From assembly GCA_026392455.1 (NCBI GenBank), contig JAPLCB010000010.1, forward strand, positions 248,001 to 312,000: a stretch of DNA of 64,000 nt, in the 5' to 3' direction. Positions 10,430-56,497 of the stretch are shown piece by piece. The stretch comes from Propionibacteriales bacterium (lineage in GTDB: Bacteria > Actinomycetota > Actinomycetes > Propionibacteriales > Nocardioidaceae). The translations under genes were made by a program, and so were the position numbers. The notes beneath the pieces are model-generated. The model was not told the origin of the DNA. It was given only the letters and a program-made list of their open reading frames with translations, and did no database searches. How positions within the stretch are numbered: the first letter of the stretch is position 1; every line of letters begins with the position of its first letter.

Positions 10430-11563
10430 ATGGAACCGATCAAGACCCTCCCGCTCGTCTTCGAGGAGCCGCAAGGCCCCCGAGGTCCGAAGCCGAAGCC
10501 GCCGCCACACCTCGCGGACCTCACCCCGGCCGAGCGCAAAGCGCGGTTGGAGGAGCTGGGGCTTCCCGGGTTCCGGGCCAAGCAGCTGTCGACGCACTAC
10601 TTCGAGCGGCTGGTCGACGACCCGGCTGCGATGACCGATCTTCCGGCGGCGTCCCGGGACGAGCTGGTCGCCGGGCTGCTCCCGCACCTGATGACCCCGC
10701 TGCGGGTGATGGAGGCCGACAAGGGCGCCACCCGCAAGACGCTGTGGAAGCTCTTCGACGGCTCGCTGGTCGAGTCCGTTCTGATGCGCTACCCGGGCCG
10801 GGTGACGATGTGCGTCTCCAGCCAGGCCGGCTGCGGAATGGCCTGTCCGTTCTGTGCGACCGGTGCCGGGGGACTGACCCGGAACATGAGCACCGCGGAG
10901 ATTGTCGAGCAGGTGGTGGCCGGCGCCAGGTCGTTGGCTCGCAACGAGGTCCCCGGTGGTCCGGGCCGGGTGTCGAACGTCGTGTTCATGGGCATGGGCG
11001 AGCCGATGGCCAACTACAACGCCGTGATCGGTGCCGTGCGCCGGCTGACCGACAAGACCCCGGACGGCCTGGGGATGTCGGCCCGAGGCATCACCGTCAG
11101 CACCGTCGGGCTGGTGCCGAGGATGAAGCAGCTTGCCGACGAGGGCATCCCGGTGACCCTCGCACTGAGCCTGCACGCGCCCGACGACGAGCTGCGCAAC
11201 GAGCTGGTCCCGATCAACACCCGGTTCTCGGTGGCGGAGACCGTCGAGGCAGCCTGGGACTACGCCCGGAAGACCAAGCGCCGGGTCTCGATCGAGTACG
11301 CCATGATGCGCGACATCAACGACCAGGCCTGGCGCGCGGACCTGCTCGGCGACGTGCTCAACTCGTACGGCGACTGGGCCTGGGTGCACGTCAACCTGAT
11401 CCCGCTCAACGAGGTCCCCGGGTCGCAGTTCACCCGTTCACGCGACGAGGACACTGACGAGTTCGTCCGACGGCTCGAGGCCAAGGGCATCCCCACGACG
11501 GTCCGGGACACCCGGGGCAGCGACATCGACGCTGCGTGCGGGCAGCTCGCGGCCGCGGAGTAG
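10430..11563 (+). CDS. rlmN: 23S rRNA (adenine2503-C2)-methyltransferase RlmN
   Basis: 377 residues. The radical-SAM cluster motif is the RlmN form, C-x3-C-x2-C in [24 protein letters not shown] and the [17 protein letters not shown] block follow, with the second catalytic Cys in the C-terminal DIDAACGQL. These distinguish RlmN/Cfr from other radical-SAM enzymes; chromosomal context favours RlmN. It methylates A2503 of 23S rRNA and A37 of some tRNAs. It lies downstream of cdsA and the lipoprotein, on the same strand. Confidence 0.94.
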
Positions 11564-23444: not shown

Positions 23445-24596
23445 ATGACATCGGTTTCCCTCGGAATGCCCGCAGCACCGCCGCCGGTCCTGGCGCCGCG
23501 TCGCCCGACGCGACAGATCAAGGTCGGCAAGGTCGGGGTCGGGAGCGAGTCGCCGGTCTCGGTGCAGTCGATGACGACGACCCTGACCTCGGACGTCAAC
23601 GCCACCCTTCAGCAGATCGCCGAGCTGACCGCGACCGGCTGCGACATCGTCCGGGTCGCGTGCCCGTCCCAGGACGATGCCGAGGCCCTGCCGGAGATTG
23701 CCCAGCACTCCCAGATCCCGGTGATCGCGGACATCCACTTCCAGCCGAAGTACGTCTTCGCAGCCATCGACGCCGGCTGTGCTGCCGTCCGCGTCAACCC
23801 GGGCAACATCAAGAAGTTCGACGACCAGATCAAGGAGATCGCGCGCGCCGCCAACGACCGCGGCACCTCGATCCGGATCGGTGTGAACGCCGGCTCCTTG
23901 GACCCGCGCCTGCTGGCCAAGTACGGCAAGGCGACGCCCGAGGCGCTCGTCGAGTCGGCGATCTGGGAGGCCTCGCTCTTCGAGGAGCATGACTTCCACA
24001 ACTTCAAGATCTCGGTCAAGCACAACGACCCGGTCGTGATGGTGCGTGCCTACGAGCTCCTCGCGGAGGCGGGCGACTGGCCGTTGCACCTCGGCGTCAC
24101 CGAGGCCGGACCGGCGTTCCAGGGCACGATCAAGTCGGCGACCGCGTTCGGTGCCCTGCTCTCCCAGGGCATCGGCGACACCATCCGGGTCTCGCTGTCG
24201 GCCCCTCCGGTCGAGGAGGTGAAGGTCGGGATCCAGATCCTCCAGTCGCTGAACCTGCGCCCCCGGAAGCTCGAGATCGTCTCCTGCCCCTCGTGCGGAC
24301 GCGCCCAGGTCGACGTCTACACGCTGGCCGAGCGGGTCACCGCCGGCCTCGAGGGCCTCGAGGTCCCGCTGCGGGTCGCGGTGATGGGGTGCGTGGTGAA
24401 CGGTCCCGGCGAGGCTCGCGAGGCCGATCTCGGCGTGGCGTCCGGCAACGGCAAGGGCCAGATCTTCGTCCGTGGCGAGGTCATCAAGACGGTGCCCGAG
24501 TCGATGATCGTGGAGACCCTGATCGAGGAAGCGATGCGGTTGGCCGAGGAGATGGAGCCGGTCGACGGCGCCTCCGCCGAGGTGACCGTCTCCTAG
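23445..24596 (+). CDS. ispG: 4-hydroxy-3-methylbut-2-enyl-diphosphate synthase
   Basis: 383 residues, the short bacterial form. [10 protein letters not shown] and the TIM-barrel block [17 protein letters not shown] lead to the C-terminal iron-sulfur domain with Cys in SCPSCGR and [13 protein letters not shown], the three ligands of the [4Fe-4S] cluster. It converts MEcPP to HMBPP in the MEP pathway. ATG 23445 appears to be the 5' end of the mRNA. The stop TAG shares CTAG with the stop of the opposite lipoprotein gene. Confidence 0.96.
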
Positions 24597-41458: not shown

Positions 41459-41734
41459 GTGTCCATCGGTACTGACGCAGAGACCAAGAAGAAGATCATC
41501 GCCGAGTACGCCACCGGTGAGGGCGACACCGGCTCCCCGGAGGTGCAGATCGCTCTGCTCTCCCACCGCATCGCGCACCTGACCGAGCACCTCAAGTCGC
41601 ACAAGCACGACCACCACAGCCGTCGCGGCCTGCTCTTGCTGGTCGGCCAGCGTCGTCGCCTTCTCAACTACCTCGAGAAGACCGAGATCGAGCGCTACCG
41701 TTCGATCGTGCAGCGCCTCGGCCTGCGTCGCTGA
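41459..41734 (+). CDS. rpsO: 30S ribosomal protein S15
   Basis: 91 residues, near the standard 89. GTG 41459 is chosen from AAGGGAG (41447-41453) and from the S15 N-terminus; ATG 41444 would add five residues. S15 blocks: [36 protein letters not shown] and [23 protein letters not shown]. It binds 16S rRNA helix 20-22. It precedes pnp, as in most bacteria. Confidence 0.96.
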
Positions 41735-41741
41735 CTCCCGC

Positions 41742-41772
41742 ACGGCGGTTCGCCTTCTAGGCGGGCCGCCGT
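41742..41772 (+). terminator. Hairpin after rpsO
   Basis: ACGGCGG (41742-41748) pairs with CCGCCGT (41766-41772) and the inner CGCCT with AGGCG, followed by TGCGTTTATCTT. A partial terminator or RNase III site between rpsO and pnp. Confidence 0.6.
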
Positions 41773-42028
41773 TGCGTTTATCTTCACCCTGCAAGGTTCA
41801 CTTGCTACAACTGAATACAAACCATTAACAGGAGCGGCCCGCGATACGCCGGCCCGGTCCTCGGTAGTGGCCTTCGGAGCAGCGTTCCGCGGGCCTCGAT
41901 CGAAGACCGGCCACCTCCCTCACGGCTTTTCGTAAGCGCAGCGTGAGGACGCAGGCAGTGCCTCACTCGTAGCCCTTGCGGGCTAAACATGGGCTCGCGG
42001 AACGCTCCGCGAAGAGAAAGGGAAACCC
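41773..42028 (+). promoter_or_regulatory. Highly structured leader of pnp
   Basis: An AT-rich patch (41786-41830) probably holds the pnp promoter. Downstream, GGCCCGCG (41836-41843) can pair with CGCGGGCC (41888-41895). Closer to the gene, three tandem hairpins follow: GTGAGG/CCTCAC (41943-41966), TAGCCC/GGGCTA (41970-41985) and TCGCGGA/TCCGCGA (41995-42012), the last seven bases before the AAAGGG ribosome-binding site. PNPase autoregulates its mRNA through leader processing in E. coli; something similar here is inferred. Confidence 0.5.
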
Positions 42029-44266
42029 TTGACTGAGGGCCCCGTCATTTCCGCCGTCGAAACCGTTCTGGACAACGGCAAGTTCGGCACCCGCACGATC
42101 AAGTTCGAGACCGGCCTCCTGGCCCGCCAGGCTGCTGGCGCCGTCACCGCGTACCTCGATGACGACACGATGCTGCTGTCGGCGACCACCGCCGGCAAGC
42201 AGCCCAAGGACCACTTCGACTTCTTCCCCCTGACGATCGACGTCGAGGAGCGGATGTACGCCGCCGGCCGGATCCCCGGCTCGTTCTTCCGGAGCGAAGG
42301 CCGTCCAGGCGAGGACGCGATCCTCGCCTGCCGCCTGATCGACCGTCCGCTGCGACCGACCTTCAAGAAGGGTCTGCGCAACGAGGTCCAGGTCGTCATC
42401 ACCGTGATGGCGCTCAACCCGGACGCCCCCTACGACGTCCTGGCGATCAACGCCGCGTCGGCGTCCACCCAGATCTCCGGCCTGCCGTTCACCGGCCCGG
42501 TCGGCGCCACCCGGGTTGCCCTCATCGAGGGTCAGTGGGTCGCGTTCCCGTCGTACAGCCAGACCGAGAAGGCCGTCTTCGACATGGTCGTCGCCGGTCG
42601 GGTCACCGACACCGGTGACGTCGCGATCATGATGGTCGAGGCGGAAGCCACCGAGAACACCATCGAGCTCATCGCGAACGGCGCCACCGCGCCGACCGAG
42701 GAGGTCGTCGCCAGCGGTCTGGAAGCGGCCAAGCCGTTCATCAAGCAGCTGTGCGAGGCGCAGGTCGAGCTGGCCAAGCAGGCCGCGAAGCCGGTCCAGG
42801 AGTTCCCGATCTTCCTGGACTACGAGGACGACGCGTACGAGGCCGTTGCCGCGCACGCGACCGAGGCCACCGCTGCCGCGCTGACCATCGTCGGCAAGGC
42901 CGAGCGCGAGGACAAGCTCGACGACATCAAGGCCGACGTGCTGAGCGCGCTGGGCGAGAAGTTCGAGGGTCGCGAGAAGGAGATCGGCGCAGCGTTCCGC
43001 TCGCTGAACAAGGCGCTGATGCGTCAGCGCGTGCTCCGCGACAAGATCCGGATGGACGGCCGTGGCCTGACCGACATCCGGACGCTGTCCGCCGAGGTCG
43101 AGGTCCTGCCCCGCGTGCACGGTTCGGCGCTGTTCGAGCGCGGCGAGACCCAGATCCTGGGTGTCACCACGCTGGACATGCTCAAGCTCGAGCAGCAGCT
43201 CGACGGTCTCTCCCCGGAGAAGCACCGCCGGTACATGCACAAGTACATCTTCCCGCCGTTCTCCACCGGCGAGACCGGCCGCGTGGGTTCGCCCAAGCGC
43301 CGCGAGGTCGGTCACGGTGCGCTCGCGCGCCGCGCCCTGCTCCCGGTCCTGCCGACGCGTGAAGAGTTCCCCTACGCCATCCGTCAGCTCTCCGAGGCGA
43401 TGGGCTCCAACGGCTCCACGTCGATGGGTTCGGTCTGCGCCTCGACGCTGTCGCTGCTCCAGGCAGGCGTTCCGCTGAAGGCTCCGGTCGCCGGTATCGC
43501 GATGGGTCTGATCTCCGACGAGGTCGACGGCAAGACCGAGTACGTCGCGCTGACCGACATCCTCGGTGCCGAGGACGCGTTCGGTGACATGGACTTCAAG
43601 GTCGCCGGCACCAAGCAGTTCGTCACCGCGCTGCAGCTCGACACCAAGCTCGACGGCATCCCCGCCGACGTGCTGGCCGGCGCGCTGACCCAGGCCCGCG
43701 ACGCCCGTCTGGCGATCCTCGAGGTGATGGCTGAGGCCATCGACGGCCCCGAGGAGATGTCCATCCACGCTCCGCGGATCATCACGGTGAAGATCCCGGT
43801 CGACAAGATCGGCGAGGTGCTCGGGCCCAAGGGCTAGGTCATCCACCAGATCCAGGACGACACCGGCGCCAACATCTCGATCGAGGACGACGGCACCATC
43901 TACATCGGTGCCACCAACGGTGAGGCCGCTGAGGCCGCTCGTCAGGCGATCAACCAGATCGCCAACCCGACGATGCCGGAGGTCGGCGAGCGCTACCTCG
44001 GTACCGTCGTGAAGACCACCAACTTCGGTGCGTTCGTCTCGCTGATGCCGGGCAAGGACGGGTTGCTGCACATCAGCAAGCTCCGTGGTCTCGCCGGTGG
44101 CAAGCGGGTCGACAACGTCGAGGACATCTTGTCCGTCGGTCAGAAGATCCAGGTCGAGATCGGTGAGATCGACGACCGCGGCAAGCTGTCGCTGATCCCG
44201 TACATCGAGGAATCCGGAAGCGCCGACGGCGACTCTGCGGACTCCGAGGAGTCCGTCGAAGCGTGA
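42029..44266 (+). pseudogene. pnp: Polyribonucleotide nucleotidyltransferase gene interrupted by an in-frame TAG
   Basis: The frame starts at TTG 42029 (AAAGGG ribosome-binding site at 42017-42022) and would give 745 residues, the normal length. Codon 603, expected Lys in the KH loop G-P-K-G-K, is TAG (43835-43837). Read through it, the frame continues without error: [19 protein letters not shown], then the S1 domain [21 protein letters not shown] to TGA 44264-44266. The 602-residue product keeps both RNase PH domains and the helical linker but lacks KH and S1. One A-to-T change explains it. A sequencing error is possible. Downstream ATG 43973 could restart an S1-only fragment but has no ribosome-binding site. 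Confidence 0.9.
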
Positions 44267-45558
44267 CGCTCGCAGCTGAGCAGAAGCCCGGCACGACCCG
44301 CACCCTCATCGAAGGCGTCCAACGGACTGTCCTTCCGGGAGGGCTGCGGGTCGTGACCGAGCACGTCCCCGGTGTCCGTTCCGCGGCCATCGGGGTCTTC
44401 GTCGGGGTGGGTTCCCGGGACGAGTCGCAGACCCTGAACGGGGCTTCGCACTTCCTGGAGCACCTGCTCTTCAAGGGCACCCCGACCCGGACGGCGATGG
44501 AGATCTCCTCGGCACTGGATGCCGTCGGGGGTGAGTTCAACGCGTACACCGCTCGGGAGTACACCTGCTACCACGCCCGGGTCCTCGACGCTGATCTGCC
44601 GATGGTGGTCGACGTTCTCGGCGACATGCTCACCGCCTCGGTGATCACGCCCGAGGACGTCGAGGCCGAGCGCGAGGTGATCCTGGACGAGATCGCCATG
44701 CACGACGACGATCCCGACGACGTGGTCCACAACCTCTTCGCGGCCAAGGCCTGGGGAGGGACCTCGCTGGCGCGCCCGATCGCGGGCACCGCGGAGTCGA
44801 TCCGGGCCCTGACCCGGCCGCAGATCAACCGCTACTACAAGACCCGGTACACCGCGCCGGCGATGACCGTCGCCGTGGCCGGCAACATCGTCCACCGCGA
44901 CGTGGTCCGGCTGGTGCGCAAGGCGTTCTCGCGCAACCACTTCCTGGCCGACCTCGACGCCCGGCCGTTGCCGCCGAGGCTGGCCGAGAAGGCGCGTGCC
45001 ACCAAGCCTGGCGAGGAGCAGACCTCGCGTCCGTTCGAGCAGGTGAACCTGGTCCTCGGGATGCGCGGTCTGACTCGCTCGGACCCCGCTCGCTATCCGC
45101 TCGGGGTCCTGAACGCCGCCTTCGGCGGGGGATCCTCGTCGCGGCTGTTCCAGGAGGTCCGGGAGCGCCGCGGGCTGGCCTACTCGGTGTACTCGTTCGC
45201 GACCAGCTACTCCGACTCCGGCATGGTCGGGGTGGCCTGCGGGTCGCTGCCCAGCAAGTCCGCCGAGGTCCTGGACGTGGTCCGCAGCGAGCTGGCCCGG
45301 GTCGTCGAGACAGGGTTGACCCAGGACGAGGTCGACCGCGGCCGCGGTCAGATGCGTGGCGGCATGGTGCTGAGCCTGGAGGACACCGGTTCCCGGATGA
45401 CCAGGCTCGGCGAGGTCGAGCTCTTCCAGGAGCGGCTGCTGTCGCTGGACGAGGTGCTCGAACGTCTCGACCAGATCACCACCGACCAGGTGCACGAGCT
45501 CGCCACGGACCTGTTCTCGCGGCCGGAGACCCTCGCGGTCGTCGGTCCGACGCGTTAG
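44263..45558 (+). CDS. M16-family zinc metallopeptidase (processing-protease-like)
   Basis: 431 residues. The inverted zinc motif H-x2-E-H is in [15 protein letters not shown], with the third ligand Glu in [16 protein letters not shown]. The C-terminal half has the R/Y pair in [13 protein letters not shown]. It resembles the PqqL/mitochondrial processing peptidase group and in actinobacteria always follows pnp; the role is unknown. GTG 44263 overlaps the pnp stop (GTGA), so its translation would normally be coupled to the pnp end that the TAG now prevents ribosomes from reaching. Confidence 0.9.
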
Positions 45559-53891: not shown

Positions 53892-54803
53892 ATGAGCCTG
53901 CCTGCAGCCCCCTTCGGTCGCGTGCTCACCGCCATGGTGACGCCGTTCAACGACGACGGATCGGTCGACCTCGACGCGGTGGCCAAGGTCGCGGATCACC
54001 TGGTCAGCAACGGCAACGACGGCATCGTCGTCAGCGGAACGACGGGGGAGTCGCCCACGACGACGGCTGCGGAGGACGGCGAGACCCTGCGGGTCGTCAT
54101 CGAGACCGTCGGGGACCGCGCCACCGTGGTCGCCGGCATCGGCACGAACGACACCCGGCACTCGGTCGAGCTCAACGAGCAGGCTGCCAAGATCGGTGCC
54201 GACGGAGCCCTGCTGGTGACGCCGTACTACAACAAGCCGACCCAGGCCGGGCTCGTCGCGCACTTCGAGGCGGTCGCGGCTGCCAGCGACCTGCCGGTGA
54301 TGCTCTACGACATCCCGGGGCGCACCGGGACCACGATCGCCCCGGAGACCTACGCCGCCCTCGCGGCCAACGAGAAGTTCGTGGCGGTCAAGGACGCCGT
54401 CGGGGACCTCTTCCGGGGAGCGAAGATCATGGCCGAGACCGACCTGGCCTTCTACTCCGGTGACGACGTCCTCAACCTGGGCTGGCTGACCCATGGTGGC
54501 TGCGGGATCGTCTCGGTGGTCGGCCACGTCGCCGGCAACCAGTACGCCGAGATGGTCGCTGCCGTGGACCGCGGCGACCTCGCCGGGGCCCTGGCGGTCT
54601 ACAACGACCTGCTCCCGGTGGTGGACGCGATCATGGGTCAGGCTCCCGGTGTGATGACGGCCAAGGCCGCCCTGCAGCTCCTCGGGATCACCACCAACAG
54701 GGCCGTCCGGCTGCCCCTGGTCGAGGCTGACCTCGAGCTGGTCGGCATCGTGCACGAAGCGTTGGCAAACGCCGCGCTCCTCCCGCTGTCAGAAAGCAAC
54801 TGA
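53892..54803 (+). CDS. dapA: 4-hydroxy-tetrahydrodipicolinate synthase
   Basis: 303 residues. TIM barrel with GTTGESPTTTAAE, PYYNKPTQAGLVAHF, YDIPGRTGTTIAPET and the Schiff-base Lys in KFVAVKDAVGDL. It condenses pyruvate and aspartate semialdehyde, the first step of the lysine/DAP branch; dapB lies 6.4 kb away. The stop overlaps rnj (TGATG), a common arrangement in actinobacteria. Confidence 0.96.
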   Translation: MSLPAAPFGRVLTAMVTPFNDDGSVDLDAVAKVADHLVSNGNDGIVVSGTTGESPTTTAAEDGETLRVVIETVGDRATVVAGIGTNDTRHSVELNEQAAKIGADGALLVTPYYNKPTQAGLVAHFEAVAAASDLPVMLYDIPGRTGTTIAPETYAALAANEKFVAVKDAVGDLFRGAKIMAETDLAFYSGDDVLNLGWLTHGGCGIVSVVGHVAGNQYAEMVAAVDRGDLAGALAVYNDLLPVVDAIMGQAPGVMTAKAALQLLGITTNRAVRLPLVEADLELVGIVHEALANAALLPLSESN

Positions 54804-56497
54804 TGAGTCACGCACACCCCGAACTGCCCACCCCCGGACCGCTGCCGAAGGGCGGCCTGCGCGTCATCGCGCTCGGCGGTCTCGGCGAGGTCGGTCGGAA
54901 CATGACCGTCTTCGAGTACGACGGCCGGCTCCTGATCGTCGACTGCGGGGTGCTCTTCCCCGAGGAGAACCACCCGGGGGTCGACCTGATCCTCCCGGAC
55001 TTCGACGCGATCCGGGACCGTCTGGACCAGGTGGACGCCCTGGTACTCACCCACGGTCACGAGGACCACATCGGGGCTACCCCGTACCTGCTCCGTGAGC
55101 GTCACGACATCCCGCTGGTCGGCTCGCAGCTCACGCTGGCGCTGCTGGACTCCAAGCTCCGCGAGCACCGGATCAAGGACACCGTCAAGCACATCGTCAC
55201 CGAGGGCGAGACCATCACCTTCGGTCCGTTCGAGCTCGAGTTCGTCGCGGTCAACCACTCGATCCCGGACGCGTTGGCGGTCGCCATCAAGACCGGTGCC
55301 GGCGTCGTCCTGCACACCGGCGACTTCAAGATGGACCAGCTCCCGCTCGACGGCCGGATCACCGACCTGCGCGCGTTCGCCCGGCTGGGCGAGGCCGGCG
55401 TCGACCTCTTCCTCACCGACTCCACCAACGCCGAGGTCCCCGGTTTCACCACCGCGGAGAAGAACATCGCGCCGGTGCTCGACCGGGTCTTCCACACCCG
55501 CGCCAACCAGCGCATCATCGTCGCCTGCTTCGCCTCGCACGTGCACCGGGTCCAGCAGATCCTCGATGCCGCCCACGAGCACGGTCGCAAGGTTGCGTAC
55601 GTCGGTCGCTCGATGGTCCGCAACATGGCGATCGCCCGCGACCTCGGCTACCTGCACGTCCCCCCGGGACTGCTGGTGGATCCGAAGGAGCTGGCCACCC
55701 TGCCGCCCGGGAAGGTCGTGATGATCTCGACCGGTTCCCAGGGTGAGCCGCTGTCGGCGCTGAGCCGGATCGCGCAGCGCAACCACAACTTCGTCACCAT
55801 CGAGGAGGGCGACTGCGTCGTGCTCGCCTCCTCGCTGATCCCGGGGAACGAGAACGCCGTCTACCGGGTCATCAACGGCCTCACCGCGCTCGGTGCCAAC
55901 GTGGTCCACAAGGGCAATGCCCTGGTGCACGTCTCCGGCCACGCGAGTGCCGGTGAGCTCCTCTACTGCTACAACATCGTGAAGCCGAAGAACGTGATGC
56001 CGGTGCACGGCGAGATCCGGCACATGCACGCGAACGCCGAGCTCGCGAAGCTGACCGGTGTCCCGGCCGACCGGGTCGTCGTGGCTCAGGACGGTTTTGT
56101 GGTCGACCTCGTCGACGGCAAGGCTGCGATCACCGGCAAGGTGGACTGCGGCTACGTCTTCGTCGACGGCAGCTCGATCGGCGACATCACCGAGAGCGAC
56201 CTCAAGGACCGCCGGATCCTCGGCGAGGAGGGCTTCATCTCGGTGATCGTGGTGATCGACTCGCAGACCGGCAAGGTCGTCAGCGGCCCCGAGATCCACG
56301 CACGAGGTTTTGCCGAGGACGACGTGATCTTCGACGAGATCAAGGGTCCTATCGTCGATGCCCTCGACAAGGCGATCAGCGACGGGGTCAACGACTCCTA
56401 CCAGCTCCAGCAGAACATCCGTCGGGTCGTGGGGCGTTGGGTCTCGGGCAAGCACCGCCGTCGCCCGATGATCATTCCCGTCGTCCTGGAGGCTTAG
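54803..56497 (+). CDS. rnj: Ribonuclease J
   Basis: 564 residues of the metallo-beta-lactamase/beta-CASP fold. LTHGHEDHIGATPYLL (zinc motif), HTGDFKMDQ and STNAEVPG are in the catalytic part, with the CASP domain ending in SGHASAGELLYCYNIVKPKNVMPVHGEIRHM. A C-terminal domain follows. It processes and degrades RNA, and with PNPase it shapes mRNA turnover, so a truncated PNPase would put more weight on this enzyme. Confidence 0.95.
   Translation: MSHAHPELPTPGPLPKGGLRVIALGGLGEVGRNMTVFEYDGRLLIVDCGVLFPEENHPGVDLILPDFDAIRDRLDQVDALVLTHGHEDHIGATPYLLRERHDIPLVGSQLTLALLDSKLREHRIKDTVKHIVTEGETITFGPFELEFVAVNHSIPDALAVAIKTGAGVVLHTGDFKMDQLPLDGRITDLRAFARLGEAGVDLFLTDSTNAEVPGFTTAEKNIAPVLDRVFHTRANQRIIVACFASHVHRVQQILDAAHEHGRKVAYVGRSMVRNMAIARDLGYLHVPPGLLVDPKELATLPPGKVVMISTGSQGEPLSALSRIAQRNHNFVTIEEGDCVVLASSLIPGNENAVYRVINGLTALGANVVHKGNALVHVSGHASAGELLYCYNIVKPKNVMPVHGEIRHMHANAELAKLTGVPADRVVVAQDGFVVDLVDGKAAITGKVDCGYVFVDGSSIGDITESDLKDRRILGEEGFISVIVVIDSQTGKVVSGPEIHARGFAEDDVIFDEIKGPIVDALDKAISDGVNDSYQLQQNIRRVVGRWVSGKHRRRPMIIPVVLEA

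Follow-up and report, generated by a model that had tools for sequence, protein, structure and literature searches.

A private in-frame amber codon in the KH loop of an actinobacterial pnp gene, probably part of a local sequence error

The window covers 64,000 nucleotides of contig C5 (bases 248001-312000). The genome amounts to 3.55 Mb in 11 contigs, with completeness given as 100 and contamination as 0.34. In the window, a pnp gene for polynucleotide phosphorylase (PNPase) lies between rpsO and a gene of the M16 peptidase family (Table 1). The gap between rpsO and pnp (41735-42028) measures approximately 290 bases. As written, pnp is an open frame of 602 residues, which runs from a TTG start to an in-frame amber codon (TAG). 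Only one copy of pnp was found in the genome, and a second pnp was rejected. Among the matches listed, the nearest named loci were the pnp genes of Nocardioides jejuensis and N. carbamazepini with 87% identity.

Table 1. Positions in the window of the pnp region and of the RNase J gene
Feature	Position	Strand	Remarks
rpsO (ribosomal protein S15)	41459..41734	+	Upstream of pnp; TIGR00952, 130.7 bits
pnp as written	42029..43837	+	RNase PH domains, helical domain and first part of KH; amber end
Private substitution, codon 598, CTC (Leu)	43820	+	A to C, I598L; Ile in 109/109 relatives
Amber codon 603	43835..43837	+	In frame; follows directly on the KH loop GPKG (GXXG)
pnp frame past the amber codon	43838..44266	+	Remainder of KH and S1 domain, then TGA
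Private substitution, codon 606, CAC (His)	43844	+	A to C, N606H; Asn in 108/109 relatives
Second private group, S1 part (V700I, V701L)	44126..44131	+	Two neighbouring codons with three base changes in all
GAGGAG, SD-like	44246..44251	+	Putative, from sequence; 11 nt upstream of the M16 GTG at 44263
M16 peptidase-family gene	44263..45558	+	Unbroken; GTG start overlaps the pnp TGA
RNase J	54803..56497	+	TIGR00649, 504.2 bits (cut-off 400)

The 602-residue product has the composition of a PNPase, with two RNase PH-type domains and a helical domain between them. Upstream of the TAG, the Pfam families RNase_PH (two stretches), PNPase and RNase_PH_C were matched, and both NF008805 and TIGR03591 scored above their cut-offs. 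TIGR02696 gave 1096.9 bits, just below its cut-off of 1106.75, with the profile matched to position 598 of 720. The residues EVLGPKG immediately precede the TAG, past which the frame is free of stops for 142 codons, up to a TGA at 44264-44266. This part matches S1 and, narrowly, the rest of KH_1 (22.1 bits against a cut-off of 21.5); as the KH_1 profile resumes at position 22, the predicted product would include about 20 residues of KH. Across the stop, the frame shares 96% identity with the intact pnp of a relative (residues 1-744). The preliminary description of this DNA had placed a TAG after G-P-K-G in the KH loop, in the frame from 42029, and had found that frame open through KH and S1 to 44266; both points are confirmed in the deposited sequence. 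It had also predicted a product with RNase PH domains but without KH and S1. The RNase PH domains do lie upstream and S1 downstream, but only most of KH is downstream and its first part is kept. Since the frame stops inside KH and both KH_1 and S1 are matched only past the TAG, KH would be incomplete and S1 absent from the translated product, provided that the TAG is real.

Codon 603 was read directly in 109 relatives, comprising 80 and 29 loci from two sets whose species may overlap. It was AAG in 103, CAG in four and AAA in two of them, a stop in none, and in all 109 the frame has no stop over 129 codons or more from this position. The expectation that homologues carry Lys here is thus upheld, with a few Gln residues besides, and the proposed comparison with relatives leaves the stop private to this genome. 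Within the genus, pnp was matched in 24 of 24 genomes and only the window genome received a stop flag; in several of the others contig ends interrupt the gene, and in one the match is confined to the part past codon 660. All 142 genomes of the order sample matched pnp, with stop flags in 14 of the 141 others, and the phylum sample gave 387 matches in 396 genomes, with one stop flag (G306) among the matches listed. These 15 flagged genomes were rejected as sharers of the stop, because theirs is the natural C-terminal one and they have Lys at 603. Apart from the window genome, none of the order sample (141 genomes) has a premature stop in the matched part of pnp, and a shared or older stop of the clade was rejected, as it was not seen in the relatives examined (109 loci, genus and order samples). 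Among the papers listed by a literature search on truncated PNPase, none contains the phrase 'premature stop codon', and natural published cases are possible.

The amber codon had been ascribed to one A-to-T change. The A-to-T change at 43835 (K603 to stop) is there, but it is the middle of three private changes within 25 bases (43820, 43835 and 43844), not an isolated one, and in all three the first base of a codon is C or T in place of A. At these sites, the five nearest relatives are identical to one another. Against five mutually agreeing close relatives, the first 722 codons contain 26 private base changes. Nineteen of these occur up to codon 597, at third positions and silent except for V269A, and four more follow 43844, one silent at 44063 and three at 44126, 44129 and 44131. 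In all seven relatives compared, codons 700-701 (44126-44131) read GTC GTC. An alignment of 110 protein sequences has 359 sites with at least 98% conservation, a set that does not include Lys603 (105/109), and the window genome departs from it only at 598 and 606. Nine of the 359 sites are located within eight residues of codon 603; for a pair of independent departures, the chance that both lie there is approximately (9/359)^2 = 6e-4. A-to-C and A-to-T changes account for 31 of the 288 private nonsynonymous changes in the window genes compared (the three pnp changes included), and from this share the chance of three such changes is about 1e-3.

Grouped private changes are found elsewhere in this genome. 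When private nonsynonymous changes in 43 window genes were grouped into overlapping triples spanning up to 30 nt, 32 were obtained, among which the pnp group alone consists purely of changes from A at first positions. Overlapping triples of private amino-acid changes elsewhere numbered 10 in the window and 23 in 6 of the 49 genes of a wider stretch. Some triples are in better-conserved surroundings, with a local conservation of 0.97-1.0 at 10865-10879 versus 0.87 for pnp. The former site has two whole-codon replacements private to the window genome, at a place with almost no variation among the relatives compared. In ispG (23445-24596), AAG is changed to ATC, giving Ile for the Lys of all five relatives compared, with further changes near that codon, two of them common to G016. 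What distinguishes the pnp group is that three codons each carry one base change, and of the same kind. The most plausible view of three like changes spread over nine codons of so conserved a loop is that of one local event. This is the KH GXXG loop, which in the enzyme from Caulobacter touches the backbone of the RNA (PMC3376730). A mutator signature was rejected, as private changes show no general A-to-C excess (39 versus 61 C-to-A). Templating by a fold or repeat was likewise rejected, with only the short palindrome CTCGGGCCCAAG and one imperfect direct repeat present and no unusual fold at the local strand (z 0.60).

The integrity of the surrounding sequence was assessed over 204 kb of the same contig using the ORFs of two relatives, of which 213 matched at 60% identity or more (genes may count twice) and covered 137,429 bases. 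Besides the two pnp copies in the ORF set, 18 ORFs were flagged for stops and four for frameshifts. Inspection of seven of the 22 at the level of single residues suggested N-terminal extensions before the true start, or ORFs in the wrong frame or strand. Thirteen were tested by overlap, and nine of them lie over an unbroken high-GC3 frame of the window genome, which left four short ORFs without such resolution (G019_95, G019_135, G019_136 and G015_108). The remaining two, G015_64 and G019_133, are at the places of G019_81 and G015_79. Thus, no other conserved gene was confirmed broken in the 204 kb, with the four short ORFs ambiguous. In a scan of the window only, pnp was the sole flagged gene among 43 with a hit (6 of 49 genes had none). 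On these two scans, a generally broken assembly was rejected.

The stop in pnp is most likely not a biological feature. We regard the TAG as part of a local error in the deposited sequence, with a probability of roughly 0.65 by our judgement. On this view, three bases in a 25-base segment around the GGGCCCAAGGGC stretch would have been miscalled, or would not be representative, in a pnp that is otherwise normal and functional, and the cell would make an ordinary full-length PNPase, KH and S1 included. This explanation predicts grouping, privacy and absence of functional consequence. It starts from private, grouped changes of one type at near-invariant sites, a pattern that also fits clustered mutation, and would place their origin in sequencing or assembly. 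It is favoured because pnp is single-copy, has been reported as essential in Streptomyces (PMC5872136, PMC10126417), and has no premature stop in its matched part in the rest of the order sample; a precedent is provided by M. smegmatis, with sequencing errors in 28 of 73 resequenced interrupted genes (PMC1852416). Several findings count against it: the assembly looks clean, the site is deep in the contig (291835 of 402197), no other conserved gene is confirmed broken nearby, grouped private changes are not rare in the genome, the local fold is ordinary, and there is a hint of relaxed selection in KH-S1. An artefact at 43820-43844 also does not explain the group at 44126-44131. The preliminary description had rightly named sequencing error and readthrough as alternatives to a real stop, and error is now the best reading. 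If the bases are wrong, which is more likely, the rule to be drawn is to seek companion changes at invariant sites before believing a lone in-frame stop.

A real stop is the less probable explanation, but one with some evidence of its own. One recent clustered mutational event, such as error-prone lesion bypass, would have produced the three changes, and the strain would live with a 602-residue core-only PNPase, which lacks a complete KH domain and S1 and would still degrade and extend RNA while binding it poorly. The absence of another confirmed broken gene in the same 204 kb is consistent with such an event, as are the private changes in KH-S1 (codons 577-722), where six nonsynonymous (TAG counted) to one synonymous contrast with 1:13 in codons 1-576 (p 0.0009); the same test in each of seven relatives gave p 0.13 or more. 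When changes were polarised against the nearest relative, the ratios were 6:6 versus 6:31 (p 0.048), and four control branches gave p 0.32 to 1. This weak excess of amino-acid changes is a hint that would fit truncation. However, the seven private KH-S1 bases form two groups and one silent site, so that the counts are non-independent, and as they include the TAG and rest on the groups at 43820-43844 and 44126-44131, the evidence is overstated. Synonymous divergence in KH-S1 is ordinary (6 in 146 codons versus 31 in 576). An authentic pseudogene or truncated allele might be shared by close relatives or decay further, and here the observations are mixed: no relative examined has the stop (0/109) and none of the 142 codons beyond it has become another stop, but there is the weak nonsynonymous excess. 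The reported essentiality of pnp in Streptomyces (PMC5872136, PMC10126417) argues against this event, which must in addition have prevailed in the sequenced culture.

Loss of KH and S1 can nevertheless be survived in other bacteria. A KH-S1 deletion in Pseudomonas aeruginosa is viable, yet shows no growth at 16 °C (PMC4773659). With an E. coli allele devoid of KH and S1, a strain deleted for pnp survived zeocin at an intermediate level; the allele reduced the recovery of transductants 25-45 fold (PMC5379764). Cores without KH/S1 form trimers and bind RNA, as in the E. coli core 3gcm (PMC2723993). Since the loss is tolerated with defects in these two species, survival with a truncated PNPase would be possible, with poorer RNA binding. 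Still more tentatively, a burst of A-to-pyrimidine changes may have hit the KH loop and the coding part for KH-S1 may now be drifting, making this a natural actinobacterium with a core-only PNPase. If so, the RNA-binding domains would be dispensable in this lineage, although the enzyme is reported essential in Streptomyces, where PNPase is also the proposed maker of RNA 3' tails (PMC5872136). Reinitiation after the TAG was rejected, as the first in-frame ATG lies beyond the KH part, has no SD-like sequence and would yield an S1 fragment only. If the bases are right, the strain is a natural experiment, ready to use, on the roles of KH and S1 in PNPase.

Two further explanations appear improbable. 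The TAG could be real and read through often enough for useful amounts of full-length PNPase, in line with the open and conserved frame past the stop and with the proposal that in-frame stops with apparent readthrough are widespread in prokaryotes (PMC7918605). Programmed readthrough would call for a conserved stop, but none of the 109 relatives keeps it, no CTA anticodon was found among 44 tRNAs (RF00005 matches, ARAGORN anticodons), and RF1 is present (prfA, 462 bits, cut-off 423.25). The last two results led us to reject a suppressor tRNA or loss of RF1, and leave readthrough at a useful level unlikely and without visible support. ARAGORN also called an 88-nt tRNA-like gene with a two-letter anticodon (L150:953-1040, minus strand), outside the 44 tRNA-family matches, and a tmRNA overlapping a tRNA-Ala(cgc) gene (L141:1120-1591, minus strand), which is probably spurious. 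Slightly more remote is a mixed template, in which a mixed culture or a metagenome bin contributed the bases of a minority variant, or of a foreign molecule, in place of those of the strain's main population. It would account for grouped private bases in a normal background, but the surrounding bases match the genome's own lineage and contamination is given as 0.34.

A real stop could also affect the gene downstream. The M16 gene had been described as losing its upstream ribosomes, and its start does overlap the pnp stop, by four bases; however, it need not rely on coupling alone. With an SD-like GAGGAG before its GTG, lost coupling might weaken rather than abolish M16 expression, and polarity over the approximately 425 untranslated bases before it is possible if the TAG is real. 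RNase J, suggested as compensation, is indeed in the window. This enzyme is common in actinobacteria, and its presence is therefore nothing special as compensation.

Among known PNPases, the closest structural comparison is with PDB entries 1e3h and 1e3p, the actinobacterial PNPase/guanosine pentaphosphate synthetase I (Streptomyces antibioticus). Residues 10-601 of the window pnp align to its residues 25-616 (1000.8 bits), and the domain order is equal up to the KH loop, where the window frame stops inside KH. The E. coli PNPase core without KH/S1 (3gcm, 3h1c) has both RNase PH parts and the helical domain, and is nearly the predicted window product. The 549 residues of 3gcm aligned to window residues 17-575, so that the predicted product would extend 27 residues further, into KH. 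The E. coli cores, which assemble into trimers and of which crystals with RNA were obtained (PMC2723993), are laboratory constructs, whereas the window product is a predicted natural one. In Streptomyces, rpsO likewise lies upstream of pnp, and S. coelicolor has an RNase III hairpin between the two genes (PMC10126417). The proposed prokaryotic readthrough cases (PMC7918605) resemble the window gene in having a TAG in a conserved frame that is open beyond it; in their example, however, the TAG is at one position in several Paenibacillus sequences, whereas that of the window pnp is private. The interrupted coding sequences of Mycobacterium smegmatis mc2 155 (PMC1852416) are similar in that conserved genes are broken in one deposited genome. 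They came from older sequencing with miscalls, overcalls and undercalls, whereas the window pnp has three substitutions, and 28 of the 73 interrupted genes that were resequenced proved to be sequencing errors.
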